Below are positions 7,628 through 19,265 of a stretch of 32,135 bases of DNA, one piece after another. Position 1 is the first letter of the stretch, and each line of letters begins with the position of its first letter. Location of the stretch: positions 1 through 32,135 of the forward strand of contig JANQFB010000205.1 of the NCBI GenBank assembly GCA_028278085.1, read 5' to 3'. The stretch is from Chitinophagales bacterium. GTDB lineage: Bacteria > Bacteroidota > Bacteroidia > Chitinophagales > JANQFB01. Position numbers and translations under genes: made by a program. The notes beneath the pieces are model-generated. The model was not told where the DNA came from, searched no databases, and saw nothing but the letters and a program-made list of their open reading frames with translations.

Positions 7628-10291
7628 ATGCAAACTATCCTTATCCCGATGTTCCGAAAGTTGTTGTCTTATATTTTCTTAGCCGGCCTGGTCAGTGGTT
7701 GCGGAATATTAAAAAACACCTATGAAGAACCCATTACGGCGGTGCCTCTGGATACGGTGGAGATCGCCCCGGTAATTATTCAGCCGAAGGTTTACCGGGC
7801 AACGGAAAGAAGGGTTAACGATCTGCTTCATACCAGGCTGGAGGTAAGCTTCGATTGGGCACAGTCGCAGGTTAACGGTAAAGCCATTCTCACCCTGAAG
7901 CCTCATTTTTATCCCGTCGATAGTGTGGTATTGGATGCCAAAGGATTTAACCTGGAGCAGGTGGCCCTGTGGAGACCCGATACGCTGATCCCCCTGACTT
8001 ATCAATATGATAGCCTCCAACTGAATATCCGATTGGATACCCTTTACAACAAGCATCAGACCTATAAAATAGTGGTTCGCTATGCGGCAAAGCCGGATAA
8101 AACTGCGGAATTGCTGGAAGAGGTGGAAGAATCCGACAAGGGGCTTTATTTTATCAATCCGTTAAATGAAATTCTTAATAAACCCCGGCAGATCTGGACC
8201 CAGGGGCAAACCCAGGCCTCTTCCTGCTGGTTCCCGACCATAGATGAGCCCAATGAAAGCACCACCCAGGAAATGTATATCACCGTCGATACAAATTTTG
8301 TAACCTTATCCAACGGAGACCTGGTCTATTCTTCCCTGAATTCCGACGGTACCCGGACCGATTACTGGAAGCAGGAGGAGCCACATGCGCCTTACCTGTT
8401 CATGTTGGCCGTCGGGGAATTTTCCGTTGTACAGGATCGCTGGAGAGATATCGATGTAAATTATTACGTAGAGCCGGAATACGAATCCCATGCCATGGAT
8501 ATCTTCGGGAATACACCGGAGATGCTCGAATTCTACTCCGATCTGTTCGGTTATGATTATCCCTGGCAAAAATATGCCCAGGTAGTGGTCCAGGACTTTG
8601 TTTCCGGCGCTATGGAAAATACTTCCGCCTCCGTTCATTTTGATGGCCTGCATCAGACCAGGCGGGAGATGATCGACGGCAATAATGAAGATTATATTGC
8701 CCATGAGCTTACCCATCAATGGTTCGGTGACCTGGTAACCTGTGAATCCTGGTCGAACCTGCCCCTGAATGAATCTTTTGCCTCTTATGGCGAGTACCTT
8801 TGGATGGCCCATAAATACGGTCCCGATGAAGGCGATCTGCACCTCTACAGTGAATTAAGACGCTACCTGGCCGAAGCCAAAAGGAGCAAAAAACGCCTGA
8901 TACGCTTCGATTATGAGCACCGCGATGATATGTTCGACCGGCACAGCTATCAAAAGGGAAGCCGGGTGCTGCATGCCCTGAGGACTTATATCGGTGATGA
9001 AGCCTTTTTTGAAACGATCAAGCGCTATTTACACCGGTATCAATATAAGGCGGTGGAGATCCATCATTTAAGATTGGCTTTCGAGGAAGTTACCGGTGAA
9101 GATCTGAACTGGTTTTTCGATCAATGGTTTTTAAATGCCGGGCATCCGGAACTGGAGGTAAGCTACCAGTACATCGATTCTGCCGGCCGCCTCGATGTTA
9201 AGATCGTCCAGATCATGGAAAGTCCTACCGATCTGTTATTCCGCCTCCCCTTAGCCATAGACATTTATGCCGGGAATAACATAGTCCGCCACCAGGTTTG
9301 GGTGGAAAAAATGGAGGAGACCTATTCCTTCAAAGTCGCTGATCCGCCGGATCTTGTCAATGTCGATGGGCAAAAAGCCCTGCTGGGGGTTATCCACGAT
9401 CAAAAACCGACCGAAGCCTATATATTCCAATATGAACACGCGCCCTTGTTTTTAGACAAGCTTGAAGCCGTTAATCACTTTGGAAAGGTCCAGCAGGAAA
9501 GTGATCCGGCGAAACAAAGCTTGTTGCGGGCCATCGGCGATCCATTTTGGTTTATCCGGCGGCAAGCGATCCGTAAGGTCGATGAAAGCGACAGCCTGAT
9601 CCGTGAGCAGTTGATCAGGGACCTTATCGATATCGCCCGGAATGACGATCATCCTAAGGTGAGAGTAGCAGCCATCCAAAAGCTGAAAAAGATCGAGGAT
9701 CCCGGCATGTTATCCCTCTTCCTGGAAATGGTCGAGGATAGTTCTTATTTGGTGGGCTCAAATGCCTTGAAGGCTATCCTGACATTAGACCGGGATGAAG
9801 CTTTCCGGCTGGCCCTTGAACAGGAAAACAGCAAGGGGAAAAGAGTATTACTGGCCATTGCCGAAGTCTATGCCGAAATGGGTAACCTGGATCAGCACAA
9901 ATTTTTCGAAAAACATTTGATCCATGCAGGCGGCTCCTCGCTGTACGGGATGATCAATCCTTATACCAATTATCTGTTGAAAATGGAGAAGGATACCACG
10001 GTCCTGAACCGTGGGATACAGAATTTAAAGCATATCGCTATCCATGGGAATGAATGGTGGATCAGGTATACGGCGATGAACAGTATCGTCGATATTAAAG
10101 ATCATTTCAAGGAAATGCAACGGACAATATCCGATAATATGTCTCAAACCAATTCCAACCCCGATTATACACAGGATAAGCGAAAACTGGATAATACCAA
10201 TAATCAGATCCAGTATATCGAAGGGATTATCGCCGACATCAAAGAGCAGGAAACCAACGATAACCTGATCCGGATCTATAACAGGCCCTAA
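7628..10291 (+). CDS. M1 family metallopeptidase (aminopeptidase N-like) lipoprotein with HEAT-repeat-like C-terminus
   Basis: GAMEN motif (SGAMENTSASVHFD) and HEXXH-X18-E (HELTHQWFGDLVTCESWSNLPLNESFASY). Lipobox-like LAGLVSGC at the N-terminus. Helical repeat tail. The ORF-track start at 7622 is TTG; ATG is at 7628 (or 7649). Confidence 0.93.
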   Translation: MQTILIPMFRKLLSYIFLAGLVSGCGILKNTYEEPITAVPLDTVEIAPVIIQPKVYRATERRVNDLLHTRLEVSFDWAQSQVNGKAILTLKPHFYPVDSVVLDAKGFNLEQVALWRPDTLIPLTYQYDSLQLNIRLDTLYNKHQTYKIVVRYAAKPDKTAELLEEVEESDKGLYFINPLNEILNKPRQIWTQGQTQASSCWFPTIDEPNESTTQEMYITVDTNFVTLSNGDLVYSSLNSDGTRTDYWKQEEPHAPYLFMLAVGEFSVVQDRWRDIDVNYYVEPEYESHAMDIFGNTPEMLEFYSDLFGYDYPWQKYAQVVVQDFVSGAMENTSASVHFDGLHQTRREMIDGNNEDYIAHELTHQWFGDLVTCESWSNLPLNESFASYGEYLWMAHKYGPDEGDLHLYSELRRYLAEAKRSKKRLIRFDYEHRDDMFDRHSYQKGSRVLHALRTYIGDEAFFETIKRYLHRYQYKAVEIHHLRLAFEEVTGEDLNWFFDQWFLNAGHPELEVSYQYIDSAGRLDVKIVQIMESPTDLLFRLPLAIDIYAGNNIVRHQVWVEKMEETYSFKVADPPDLVNVDGQKALLGVIHDQKPTEAYIFQYEHAPLFLDKLEAVNHFGKVQQESDPAKQSLLRAIGDPFWFIRRQAIRKVDESDSLIREQLIRDLIDIARNDDHPKVRVAAIQKLKKIEDPGMLSLFLEMVEDSSYLVGSNALKAILTLDRDEAFRLALEQENSKGKRVLLAIAEVYAEMGNLDQHKFFEKHLIHAGGSSLYGMINPYTNYLLKMEKDTTVLNRGIQNLKHIAIHGNEWWIRYTAMNSIVDIKDHFKEMQRTISDNMSQTNSNPDYTQDKRKLDNTNNQIQYIEGIIADIKEQETNDNLIRIYNRP

Positions 10292-11817
10292 TCTACGGCT
10301 TGGATGATCAACTTTTCCCGGACCAGCAGCTCCCCTTTATCTCCTGCGATGTCCACCAAATACAAACCCTTTGGAAAACCAAGGATGCTGATGGGTTGAT
10401 TAGCCGCAACCTGCTCTTCCCTGATCAGTTGACCCATGCTGTTCCGGATCCTGATCCAAAGCGGTTGATCGCTTTGATGGCGGACGTAAACACCGGTTTG
10501 TGCGGGATTGGGGAATAACTGAATTCGTGCACCCGGAACCTGGCCGGCAATACCGACGAACACGATCGATAGCTCCATCGTTGTATCATCATTGCTGATG
10601 GGGTTGGAGGCCGTAAGCTTCACCGCATAGGTATCGGCTACACTGTAAGTATGAGAAGGTTCAAAATCGTTGGAAGTGTTCCCATCCCCGAAATCCCAAA
10701 CATAGTCGGAGGCGTTGACAGACGTATTCATGAAATCCACCATGGAATCGTTCACCATCGTAAATGAAAATTCAGCCTGTGCTAAGCCGAAAACGTGGAT
10801 GTAATCCGTTTTGACCAGGGTATCGGATCCGGAGGAATTCGAAACGATCAGCGTGACGGCGTAGTCGCCGGCTGCTGCATAGGAATGCTCGGGCTCGATT
10901 TCCGTGCTGGTATTACCGTCACCAAAATCCCAATGCCAGTTGGTAGCGCCGGCAGATAAGTTCACAAAGGAAACCGGTTCATCGATGGCCACATCATTGA
11001 CCGTCGCAAAGAAATCGGATTTGGGTTTCGGCGCTTTGTCGGCCATGAAATCGACATCGACAATTTCATAATTGCCATCCATTACCACCGTCGCTACCGG
11101 GTATCTCACGGTATCCGATACGAAATAATAAGTATGGGTCGTATCGCTGCTGATCGGTATTTCCGTAACGGGTATGCCACCGACTAATACGGCTGCCGTA
11201 TCGAAGGTCACGCTATGTTCATGTATCCTCAGCACCTCGAAGGTATCGGTACCTACATAAAAGGTCCCCCAGGCATCGATCGTGTCCACTTTGGTGGTGT
11301 GGCGCTTATAAAGCGTATCCACAAAGTCCCCGGGGTTATCGGCGATCAATTTCTCATAATAGGCATAATCATTGATGATCGCCCCATAGGTTACCGGGGC
11401 TGGGAACACCAGTTCTTTGGGATTGGGAGCTGTTCGCAAGAAATCCAGGCCTAGTAATGACAGGTCGATCGCTATGCCGTCCACAAAAATACCGGAAGGA
11501 GAATGGGAAAAGTAAAAGTAGATCCGGGCTTCACTGTCCCACTGGGCCATATCGGCTGTTGGGAAATCAGTACCGAAGGGCGTGAGCAGGGGATCGATAA
11601 ATGCAACCGTGTCATGATGGTCGATGACCAGGTTACGGAAGTCCCATATCTGTGCGTTGGCGCTGGCCATCCCCAGGTCAACGCTGTCCGTGTCCGAATC
11701 GGCTACGGAAAAAACATCTCCCATAATGGGCAGGTCGCTGTTTTGTATCGTGATCTGTGCTTGTACCGAAAGGCACGCTAATAATAAGAGGGTTATCAAT
11801 TCGAATCTGTACTTCAT
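10288..11817 (-). CDS. PKD domain-containing T9SS type A sorting domain protein
   Basis: Two PKD domains (WHWDFGDGNTSTEIEPEHSYAAAGDYAVTL; YVWDFGDGNTSNDFEPSHTYSVADTYAVKL). C-terminal IQLFPNPAQTGVYV...GFPKGLYLVDI. Likely start MKYRFELITLLLLACLSVQAQ (signal peptide) at 11817 rather than the track start 11874. Confidence 0.88.
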   Translation of the reverse strand: MKYRFELITLLLLACLSVQAQITIQNSDLPIMGDVFSVADSDTDSVDLGMASANAQIWDFRNLVIDHHDTVAFIDPLLTPFGTDFPTADMAQWDSEARIYFYFSHSPSGIFVDGIAIDLSLLGLDFLRTAPNPKELVFPAPVTYGAIINDYAYYEKLIADNPGDFVDTLYKRHTTKVDTIDAWGTFYVGTDTFEVLRIHEHSVTFDTAAVLVGGIPVTEIPISSDTTHTYYFVSDTVRYPVATVVMDGNYEIVDVDFMADKAPKPKSDFFATVNDVAIDEPVSFVNLSAGATNWHWDFGDGNTSTEIEPEHSYAAAGDYAVTLIVSNSSGSDTLVKTDYIHVFGLAQAEFSFTMVNDSMVDFMNTSVNASDYVWDFGDGNTSNDFEPSHTYSVADTYAVKLTASNPISNDDTTMELSIVFVGIAGQVPGARIQLFPNPAQTGVYVRHQSDQPLWIRIRNSMGQLIREEQVAANQPISILGFPKGLYLVDIAGDKGELLVREKLIIQAVD

Positions 11818-11855
11818 AACTGTAGGCTTTTGATCATTCATTCCGGGAACAGCAA

Positions 11856-11921
11856 TTTGTGTCAAAATTGACATAATATTGACGTAGAATTGCCGTAAAA
11901 TTGCGTCATTTTTGCTTATTG
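11856..11921. repeat. phased 11-bp tandem array (four strong units plus two degenerate flanking units), possible operator/iteron array
   Basis: TTTGTGTCAAA|ATTGACATAAT|ATTGACGTAGA|ATTGCCGTAAA|ATTGCGTCATT|TTTGCTTATTG read directly from the sequence, contiguous with no spacer. An embedded palindrome TGTCAA-AA-TTGACA lies at 11860-11873. Confidence 0.7.
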
Positions 11922-11999: not shown

Positions 12000-13835
12000 C
12001 TAAAATGCCTGGAGCTCCACTAATTTCTTATAGACGCCTTTTTTAGCCATCAGACCGCTGTGGGTGCCTCTTTCGGTTATTTTGCCGTTTTGCAGCACAA
12101 TGATCTCATCCGCGTGCTGGATGGTAGACAAACGGTGCGCAATGACGATGGAGGTGCGGTTTTTCATCAGGTTTAACAGCGCATCCTGGACCATTTTTTC
12201 CGAGGCGGCATCGAGGGAAGATGTGGCTTCGTCGAGGATCAGGATAGGCGGATTTTTCAGCACGGCCCGCGCGATCGTAAGCCGTTGACGCTGCCCGCCG
12301 CTCAGCTTGCTGCCTTGTTCCCCGATATTGGTCTGGTAGCCGTTTTCGAGTTGAGCGATAAATTCATGAGCATTGGCTACCTTAGCCGCCCGGATAATAT
12401 CCTCCTCTTTGGCATCCGGCATGCCGAAGGCGATATTATTCATCACCGTATCGTTAAACAATATGGATTCCTGGGTTACATATCCCAATTGTTTCCGGAG
12501 ATCATTCAGCTTCACATCCTTGATCTTTTTACCATCGATCAGGATCTCTCCTTCATTGGTATCATAAAATCTGCAAACCAGGTCGACCAGGGTGCTTTTG
12601 CCGGCGCCGGAAGGGCCGAAAAGGGCGATCATTTTACCTTTGGGAATGGTCAGGTTCACATGGTCCAGTACCACTTCCTGTTCATAGGAGAAAGTGACAT
12701 TTTTAAATTCGATCTCCGATTCAAAAGAAGGCAGGGGTTCCGGCTTTTCTTTTTCTTTGATCTTAATATCTTCCTGGAGAATACTGTTGATCCGGTCGAA
12801 AGAAGCCATCCCTTTCTGGATCAGGTAAAAGGCTTTGGAAAAGGTTTTCGCCGGAGGGATCAATTGTGAGAAGATCAGCATAAAGCCAATGAAGGTCTGC
12901 GGTTTCAACTGGGCGTCGCCGATGCTGGTCGGGTCGACATTCAGGACGATCCTTGCACCGTACCACAATACGATAACCACTACGGAAATAGCCAGGAACT
13001 CGGTCAGCGGGGAAGATAGTTCTCTTCTCCGCAGCATATTGTTCATGATATTGAAATGATCGTTGTTGATCTGCCCGAATTTCCGCACCTGTATCTTTTC
13101 GGCAATAAAGGCTTTGATGATCTTGAAACCGGAAATGGTTTCTTCCATAAATGACGATAGTTCCCCCAGCTTGGATTGCGCCTTAGCCGATTCGCGCTTC
13201 AGGCTTTTGGCAATTTGGCCGATCACCAGGCCGGTCAGCGGGAGCATCACCAATACAAAAAGCGTCAATTGGGGGCTGATGAAAAACATGGCCCATAAAT
13301 AGGCAATAATGGTCAGCGGTTCTTTGAACAATACTTCAAGGGTACTCATAATGCTCCATTCGATCTCCTGGACGTCGGAGGTCATCCGCATGATGATATC
13401 CCCTTTGCGGGCCTCCGAAAAGTAAGACAGCGGGAGTGTGGTGATCTTGCCATACATGCCGTAGCGAATATCCCTGACCACGCCGTTCCTGATGGGCGAG
13501 AGGCAAAATAATGCCAGGTACCGGAAGAGGTTTTTGATGAAAAAAACGACGATCACCACCAGGCATATAAACACCAGGGCATTGATGGATCCGTAGATCA
13601 ATATGATCTGTGATAAGCGGAAATTGAAATATTTGATCATGCTTTCGATGGAAAACGTCAGTTTCGGCTCCGTCAGTACCAGCTCCTGGGTACCGAACAG
13701 CAGGCTCAGGAAAGGGATCACCATGGAAAGAGATACCAGGGAGAACAGGATCGTGATGAGATTGAATAAAAGATTCAACAGGGCATAGCCTTTGTATCCC
13801 TTTACATGCGCGATTATAGCCCAAAAACTTTTCAT
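12000..13835 (-). CDS. ABC transporter ATP-binding protein/permease (MsbA-like lipid/multidrug exporter)
   Basis: Six-TM exporter domain followed by an NBD with Walker A (GPSGAGKS), signature LSGGQRQR, Walker B (ILILDEATSSLD) and H-loop. Likely start MKSFWAIIAHVKGYKGY at 13835; the ORF-track extension to 14066 overlaps rbfA and is not needed. Confidence 0.93.
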   Translation of the reverse strand: MKSFWAIIAHVKGYKGYALLNLLFNLITILFSLVSLSMVIPFLSLLFGTQELVLTEPKLTFSIESMIKYFNFRLSQIILIYGSINALVFICLVVIVVFFIKNLFRYLALFCLSPIRNGVVRDIRYGMYGKITTLPLSYFSEARKGDIIMRMTSDVQEIEWSIMSTLEVLFKEPLTIIAYLWAMFFISPQLTLFVLVMLPLTGLVIGQIAKSLKRESAKAQSKLGELSSFMEETISGFKIIKAFIAEKIQVRKFGQINNDHFNIMNNMLRRRELSSPLTEFLAISVVVIVLWYGARIVLNVDPTSIGDAQLKPQTFIGFMLIFSQLIPPAKTFSKAFYLIQKGMASFDRINSILQEDIKIKEKEKPEPLPSFESEIEFKNVTFSYEQEVVLDHVNLTIPKGKMIALFGPSGAGKSTLVDLVCRFYDTNEGEILIDGKKIKDVKLNDLRKQLGYVTQESILFNDTVMNNIAFGMPDAKEEDIIRAAKVANAHEFIAQLENGYQTNIGEQGSKLSGGQRQRLTIARAVLKNPPILILDEATSSLDAASEKMVQDALLNLMKNRTSIVIAHRLSTIQHADEIIVLQNGKITERGTHSGLMAKKGVYKKLVELQAF

Positions 13836-13845
13836 GTGATCGAAA

Positions 13846-13853
13846 CAAAGATA
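13846..13853 (-). promoter_or_regulatory. candidate Bacteroidota -7 promoter element TATCTTTG (TAnnTTTG) upstream of the ABC exporter
   Basis: The reverse complement of caaagata is TATCTTTG, 10 nt upstream of the ATG. No -33 TTG at 19-20 nt spacing. Confidence 0.3.
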
Positions 13854-13956
13854 TTCATTTAGTTTTGTTATTTTTAGCAATAGCCTGTTGACCCGGTTTT
13901 GAATCATCCCCGGACCTCCGGAGGATCCCATTAATAGCCGGTTAAAATCAATAGTT

Positions 13957-14310
13957 TTGGAATCGAAACGACAACAACAGATCTCCCGGTTGCTGCAACA
14001 AGAATTAAATGCCATCATCACCAGGCATGGCCGGGAATTATTTCCGGATGCGTTTATCACGATCACCGGTATTAAAGTCAGCCCGGATGTATCGGATGCC
14101 AGGGTATATCTGAGCGTTTATAAACGGGATGATAAGGCATCCGTCATCAACATCCTTACCCATAATGTAAAAGCGATCAGAAAAGAGCTGGGCGACCGGA
14201 TCCGGTATAAGGTCAGGAGGATCCCGGCGCTTCAATTCTTCCTGGACGAATCCCTGGATAACGTTTATAAAATGGAGCAGATCTTCAAAGACCTGGACAA
14301 ACCTTCCTAA
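13957..14310 (+). CDS. rbfA: 30S ribosome-binding factor RbfA
   Basis: 117 aa: ESKRQQQISRLLQQELNAIITRHG...ITITGIKVSPDVSDARVYLSVY...RKELGDRIRYKVRRIPALQFFLDESLDNVYKMEQIF, typical RbfA. The start appears to be TTG. Confidence 0.92.
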   Translation: MESKRQQQISRLLQQELNAIITRHGRELFPDAFITITGIKVSPDVSDARVYLSVYKRDDKASVINILTHNVKAIRKELGDRIRYKVRRIPALQFFLDESLDNVYKMEQIFKDLDKPS

Positions 14311-18515: not shown

Positions 18516-19265
18516 CTACAATTCAGCCATCCGGCTTAAAAAATGTTCCTTGTAATTCCGGGATACACCAACGATCGTATCATCGACCATAACGACCTGT
18601 CCACCTTTGGCGCTGATGTATTTTTTGATATGCTCCATATTGATCAGGTGAGATTGATGGACACGTAGGAAATTGTAGTCGCCCAATAATTCTTCATACT
18701 CCTTCAGGATCTTGGAAACAGTGATCTTGTTCCCATTGGAGAGGTATAACTGGGTATAGCTGCCATCCGCTTCACACCGGATAATATCCTTGATCCGTAT
18801 AAATAATAATCCTTCGGAGGTCGGGATGGCAATTTTCTTTTGGCTGAGGTCTTTTTTCTTGAAGTTTTCTTTTAGGATCTCGTAACTCAGCTTGGGTTGT
18901 TCGCTGGAAATTTTTTCACTCACTTTGGAAACCGCAATTTCCAGTTCTTCGATATTGATCGGTTTCATGAGGTAATCGATAGCACAGGCCTTAAATGCCT
19001 GGATGGCATAATGATCGTGCGCGGTGGCGAAGATGAGCTCGAAATTGATCTTGTCCAGTTTATCCAGCAGGTCGAATCCTGTTTCACCCTGCATTTTCAC
19101 ATCCAAAAAAACCAGGTCGGGCTTGTGCCTTTTAATGGCAGCAATACCGCCTTTGACGTTTTCTTCACGGGCCAGTACTTCTACATTCGGGCAGTATTCC
19201 TCGAGAAGGTCGCAAAGGTTTTCCCGGGCTTTTTCCTCATCATCGATTATGATAGTTTTGATCAT
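18516..19265 (-). CDS. LytTR family DNA-binding response regulator
   Basis: REC domain (IIIDDEEKARENL...LVFLDVKMQGETGFDLL...FATAHDHYAIQAFKACAIDYLMKPI) plus LytTR domain (IIRCEADGSYTQLYLSNGNKITVSKILKEYEELLGDYNFLRVHQSHLINMEHI). Confidence 0.94.
   Translation of the reverse strand: MIKTIIIDDEEKARENLCDLLEEYCPNVEVLAREENVKGGIAAIKRHKPDLVFLDVKMQGETGFDLLDKLDKINFELIFATAHDHYAIQAFKACAIDYLMKPINIEELEIAVSKVSEKISSEQPKLSYEILKENFKKKDLSQKKIAIPTSEGLLFIRIKDIIRCEADGSYTQLYLSNGNKITVSKILKEYEELLGDYNFLRVHQSHLINMEHIKKYISAKGGQVVMVDDTIVGVSRNYKEHFLSRMAEL

Follow-up and report, generated by a model that had tools for sequence, protein, structure and literature searches.

What reads a lattice in which TTG recurs six times at constant 11-nt steps (positions 11857, 11868, 11879, 11890, 11901 and 11912), and what is it for? 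The array lies in contig JANQFB010000205.1, the whole 32,135 nt of which form the window analyzed here, between the ATG of a PKD/T9SS gene (11817) and the stop codon of an ABC transporter gene (12000), both genes running in the same direction. An earlier note, made from the letters of the window, had pointed out the six cores and their exact spacing, and we confirmed both in the window sequence; TRF detected the array independently as a period-11 repeat at 11864–11903. The same note had described four units with degenerate flanks. While the repeat is real, a better register divides it into five units (TTGTGTCAAAA TTGACATAATA TTGACGTAGAA TTGCCGTAAAA TTGCGTCATTT; 39 bp from the PKD gene start and 88 bp from the ABC transporter stop) with a half-unit at either end, bounded at ~73 bp (Table 1). 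The array is noncoding, as had been claimed, provided that the PKD gene begins at its signal-peptide ATG (11817); a second in-frame ATG lies upstream of it, at 11874, and would add residues ahead of the signal peptide. An Rfam search gave no match at the array, and orthologues of the PKD gene, sought for an alignment of upstream regions, yielded distant PKD-domain relatives only.

Table 1. Features of the window at and around the 11-bp array.
Feature	Coordinates	Strand	Description and basis
Complete element	11847..11919	no strand	Half-unit, five 11-bp units, half-unit; column conservation of 44 arrays
Five full units	11857..11911	no strand	Lattice scan and TRF
Left half-unit GAACAGCAAT	11847..11856	no strand	Family consensus AAATGCAAWT; conserved columns −10 to −1
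Right half-unit TTGCTTAT	11912..11919	no strand	Family consensus TTGNNWWT; conserved columns 55–62
PKD-domain protein gene	10288..11817	-	With T9SS C-terminal sorting signal; Pfam PKD_4, PKD, Por_Secre_tail
ABC transporter gene	12000..14066	-	Membrane domain and ATPase; Pfam

The source genome (G000) is a MAG of 6.12 Mb in 590 contigs, 94% complete, from which 816 kb of mostly array-bearing contigs served as a detailed sample. A lattice-profile scan over 671 kb of the genome found 27 arrays at period 11, identical for all thresholds from 12 to 20, in a contig sample that is enriched for arrays and with a profile trained on those same arrays; other periods gave 0–4 arrays, none at a threshold of 18 or above, and shuffled DNA gave one at threshold 12 and none above it. 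Because the arrays at period 11 exceed both the other-period and the shuffled controls, the array is far beyond chance. Five TTG at one fixed spacing occurred three times at 11 bp and never at 7–10 or 12–15 bp (816 kb), and across the whole genome a 38-bp phased pattern matched 8 times and its three-unit version 13 times, versus 0 for the reversed control in each case. A symmetric three-unit pattern matched 190, 129 and 55 times at up to three, two and one mismatches, respectively, versus 11, 1 and 0 for the control. Extrapolation from the sampled part via pattern counts puts the genome total at an estimated 46–60 arrays. The array in the window is real and one member of a dispersed family, rather than an isolated oddity: the other phased copies on which the earlier note had let its proposal depend are many.

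When 44 arrays were aligned in phase, conservation covered the columns −10 to +62, counted from unit 1, with an abrupt end on either side. The element is ~73 bp long, with an AAATGCAAWT half-unit, five TTRNSNYAAWW units in strict 11-bp register, and a TTGNNWWT half-unit, beyond which the flanking columns are unconserved. Distances from TTGAC to TTGAC in the source genome peak at 11, 22 and 33, and those from TTGAC to GTCAA at −7 and −29, which is the identical lattice on the opposite strand; the unit is therefore a pseudo-palindrome, TTR-NSN-YAA-WW (in short, TTG-NNN-CAA), a symmetry that the earlier note had overlooked along with the two-way orientation of the units and the bounded extent of the element. 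Unit 1 is mostly GTCAA (34 of 43 arrays), unit 5 is mostly TTGAC (32 of 43), and the inner units take either orientation within single arrays. Neighboring units meet in an AAWWTT junction that recurs every 11 bp and in which the flexible TA step is not avoided (TA 25, AT 34); strong base-specific conservation is also seen at positions that do not belong to the A/T tracts, namely 2 (R), 4 (S) and 6 (Y).

Pairwise identity among the arrays is what sampling each column independently at its own base frequencies would give, they are not flanked by target-site duplications, complementary columns showed no hairpin covariation (paired 0.619 versus shuffled 0.636), and, one duplicated pair and a single 72-bp match at 75% apart, their flanks show no relationship to one another. 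For these reasons, the arrays follow the pattern of independently maintained protein-binding sites, not that of a mobile repeat or an RNA structure. Tests for a cruciform or RNA hairpin, for target-site duplication and for common descent each led to rejection. In the duplicated pair (L192:10-472 and L196:501-963, on G000 contigs C182 and C314), a left flank of ~406 bp (90%) and a similar array are held in common, and the two copies share nothing beyond the array's right edge, which marks a duplication breakpoint at the array.

The earlier note had placed the array in the promoter region of the PKD/T9SS gene and suggested a cooperative operator, and the placement of the family gives no specific support for an operator of that gene. 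Among the 38 arrays with both neighbors called, 25 lie in tandem, 8 in divergent and 5 in convergent gaps, counts that rest on simple ORF calls; L049, a three-unit case, falls inside a gene. Start codons are found within 150 bp of 19 of 30 arrays, where random placement in the same gaps predicts 20.1. The genes next to arrays include polA, uvrC, ruvB, an SMC gene, mscS, asnB, and those for a PIF1-like helicase and for TPR and secreted proteins, and no common function was found among them. Because convergent gaps are occupied, distances to starts are random and the neighbors are unrelated, a promoter-only role for the arrays is not supported. The start of the SMC (chromosome condensation) gene has one array (L126:2536-2590, on G000 contig C147) 185 bp upstream. 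Arrays are also over-represented close to contig ends, with 21 of 32 at a distance of up to 2 kb versus 12.7 expected (p about 0.0006).

A search of the source genome for ribbon-helix-helix (RHH) proteins returned, among weak matches, a 55-aa ORF at C468:12100-12267 (MAKSVKRVNVSFTTDQWDRIQLLKGELGDSDAEIIRTIVISWLLEKGYIAAPPKA), and an array ends 8 bp before its ATG. Of the arrays among the matches listed, this one alone combines three overlapping matches at zero mismatches, equivalent to five mismatch-free units, and its units are somewhat unlike those of most arrays (TTACGGTAA, TTATCGTAA). Upstream of the RHH gene are genes for an MBOAT protein and one further protein, and no partner for partition or chromosome organization is known next to it. 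The 55-aa protein has Pfam matches that fall short of the curated cut-off, to ParG at E=0.01 and to RHH_1 at E=0.15, and a four-homologue profile matches ParG (PDB 1p94), the closest solved relative, with E=0.0025 over residues 3–46. Its assignment to the RHH family is therefore a weak one, and from its position and from the homologues described below we infer that it is a supported candidate for the binder of the arrays. Residue 9 of the candidate (P0002) falls in a predicted beta-strand, KRVNVSF, with KRVQV or KRIQV in the four homologues, and this position may face DNA.

Homologues of the 55-aa protein are rare. We found two among 348 other genomes of the order (59% and 53%), one on the Methanothrix plasmid pH6Ac (51%) and one in a Methanobacteriales virus (44%), and none in viral contigs or in 394 other genomes of a class-level sample. 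In both Bacteroidota homologues (G680 and G142), the start codon is preceded, at no more than 20 bp, by a short lattice of the array unit (TTATGTCTGAT TTGTGTTAAAT TTGAGTG, and ATGTGTTTAAA TTGTGTCAAAT). Three-unit lattice scores are 14.9 in G680 and 13.6 in G142, and the highest score among 334 unselected upstream windows was 9.3; at every one of the five RHH loci, period 11 scored best. Scores before the plasmid (2.3) and virus (6.4) homologues lie within background, and no array is recognizable there. A repeat array directly upstream of the RHH gene, in operator position, is found on C468 and recurs before the two diverged homologues, and we take this co-occurrence of lattice and gene in different families as the strongest evidence for the RHH protein as reader of the lattice; its binding to the dispersed arrays is a further, putative step. 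G142 has the RHH gene yet no dispersed arrays; dispersal is therefore not general to the protein family.

Outside the source genome, a DNA methyltransferase gene directly follows the RHH gene in all four homologue loci (L227:4402-6494, L228:104-2195, L226:6001-7139 and L229:2995-4477, from the two Bacteroidota genomes, the archaeal plasmid and the archaeal virus), and in both Bacteroidota loci a NotI-like endonuclease gene converges on the methyltransferase gene. This arrangement looks like a restriction-modification (R-M) system with an RHH controller; a review names RHH regulators for toxin-antitoxin systems only (PMC3874152). In the source genome, no methyltransferase occurs in the 135 bp from the C468 RHH gene to the contig end, no NotI-like nuclease was found, and the methyltransferases present are distant (39% and 31%) and on other contigs. 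Since the MAG is 94% complete, the absence of R-M partners from it is probable, not certain.

The array family itself was not found in about 675 other Bacteroidota genomes, none of them of the same genus or family, and within the genomes searched it is restricted to this lineage. Other genomes of the same order (n=298) reached at most 6 matches each at up to two mismatches, and in a 396-genome sample of the phylum other genomes reached at most 1 match at up to one mismatch. In relatives, the matches to a three-TTGNC pattern were all chance-like, and viral contigs bearing the exact pattern carry unrelated short repeats without an RHH gene. One genome of the same order (G054, family f12) shows a mild excess of a degenerate lattice pattern (26 versus 7 for the control at up to three mismatches), which may come from a diverged relative of the array family or from an effect of composition.

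Overall, we give a probability of about 60% to the reading that the window array is one of roughly 45–60 chromosomal sites of the 55-aa RHH protein, bound by cooperative dimers, with one site being autoregulatory and the rest forming a lineage-specific network. Each pseudo-palindromic 11-bp unit would take one two-fold-symmetric RHH dimer reading the major groove, a symmetry that would explain why the direction of the units is free. The contiguity and fixed number of the units, five with half-units for end contacts, argue for cooperative assembly on one helical face: five or six dimers would sit side by side, in contact at the AAWWTT junctions, with ~70 bp coated or wrapped. What survives of the cooperative operator first proposed is a putative cooperative protein-binding array, supported by the genome-wide recurrence, the fixed phase with drift, and the lattices before RHH homologues.

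At the promoter of the RHH gene, the array would serve autoregulation, probably the ancestral role and still visible in the homologues that accompany R-M genes, partners that the protein seems to have lost in this lineage. Its candidate sites are now intergenic throughout the genome. For the dispersed complexes, the context statistics lead us to prefer chromosome organization as the most likely role, with general transcriptional control somewhat less likely, and they would not be a dedicated operator of the PKD gene. The fuller history, in which an autoregulated RHH repressor of R-M origin became a lineage-specific chromosome organizer with about 50 five-unit centromere-like sites, is a tentative proposal that we hold to be less likely than not. 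What would be new is that a DNA-binding module of a known kind is used in a lineage-specific way.

Had the RHH protein become a global transcription regulator, the arrays would be ordinary operators of a large and diverse regulon to which the PKD/T9SS gene would belong. Repression is the usual role of RHH proteins, the lattices of the homologues sit in operator position, and the many arrays close to start codons, the one in the window among them, could be read in the same way; we nevertheless find this unlikely, as proximity to starts equals the random expectation, five placements are convergent, and the neighbors have no common function. Less probable still is a different binder (OmpR/PhoB-type, LytTR-type, or a nucleoid protein) for which the RHH-adjacent array would be one ordinary target. 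The link to the RHH family is statistical, a LytTR response regulator is encoded at 18516–19265, and the 11-bp spacing also fits PhoB-type half-sites, but PhoB-type proteins bind head-to-tail whereas array units have mixed directions within one array, no pho-type neighbors were seen, and a host regulator would not explain the lattice before RHH homologues in other families. A PhoB/OmpR operator (pho box) was ruled out by the mixed orientation and by neighbors unrelated to phosphate uptake. LytTR sites consist of two ~9-bp repeats about two helical turns apart, and such a site was ruled out by the 11-bp period and by five contiguous units of different sequence; with spacing and unit both different, the LytTR regulator suggested earlier as the binder yields to the RHH protein on C468 as the better candidate.

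It is very improbable that the array is an interspersed REP/MITE-like repeat, a structural or mobile element spread by copying. The many copies, which resemble one another in length and carry terminal half-units, their enrichment near contig ends, and the L192/L196 pair with its common left flank up to the array would suit such an element, whereas the copies are no more alike than independent column draws would make them, target-site duplications and hairpin covariation are absent, and the remaining copies share no flanks, bar the one 72-bp match. We think just as little of intrinsic curvature, by which only the AAWWTT tracts, one per helical turn, would matter in bending the DNA. Tracts at every 11 bp are what it predicts, and an A-tract periodicity of ~10–11 bp has been linked to nucleoid proteins in prokaryotes (PMC3940949), yet it accounts neither for the conserved bases outside the A/T tracts nor for the sharp five-unit limit, and the TA step is not avoided at the junction.

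If the preferred reading, an RHH protein on dispersed five-unit sites, is true, it would show how a repressor that began in R-M systems or mobile elements can be domesticated to coat DNA throughout a genome, and the 55-aa protein with its 73-bp site would offer a compact model for RHH assembly on phased arrays regardless of unit direction. To our knowledge, chromosome-organizing factors in Bacteroidota are poorly known.

Among known systems, the sites of Noc, SlmA and MatP are similar in that tens of them lie between genes on a chromosome without an obvious regulon. Those sites are single 13–20-bp palindromes, whereas the array is a five-unit lattice, mapped to the contigs of one MAG. R-M controller (C) proteins are also small autoregulating DNA-binding proteins, encoded directly before a methyltransferase as are all four homologues elsewhere; behind the RHH gene of the source genome, none occurs in the 135 bp to the contig end. 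C proteins are helix-turn-helix proteins, unlike the RHH-like candidate family, whose R-M partners were not found in the source genome. With ParR/parC of plasmid R1, where parC arranges its 11-bp repeats as two clusters of five, the array shares an RHH-type candidate binder, the 11-bp repeats and an autoregulatory position beside the gene. It differs in that dozens of arrays are spread over the chromosome, no ParM-like partner was seen beside the RHH gene, whose contig ends 135 bp downstream, and the units face both ways; a ParR/parC-type centromere, with its direct repeats in one orientation, was rejected on the mixed unit direction within arrays. R1 ParR requires two 11-bp repeats (PMC9426499). 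ParG of TP228, the RHH centromere-binding protein to which the candidate is closest among solved structures, has an N-terminal extension that the candidate lacks (the match begins at ParG residue 32 of 76), and no ParF partner was seen. The omega protein, the RHH ParB of pSM19035, has a 7-bp rather than an 11-bp unit, and the arrays differ further in being dispersed over the genome, with no ParA-like partner seen. Contiguous heptads are bound by omega whichever way they face, and fewer than four do not suffice for its function (PMC9499535); omega is an autoregulator as well (PMC3874152). The arrays resemble its sites as contiguous short repeats of mixed orientation, of which a minimum contiguous number matters for omega.
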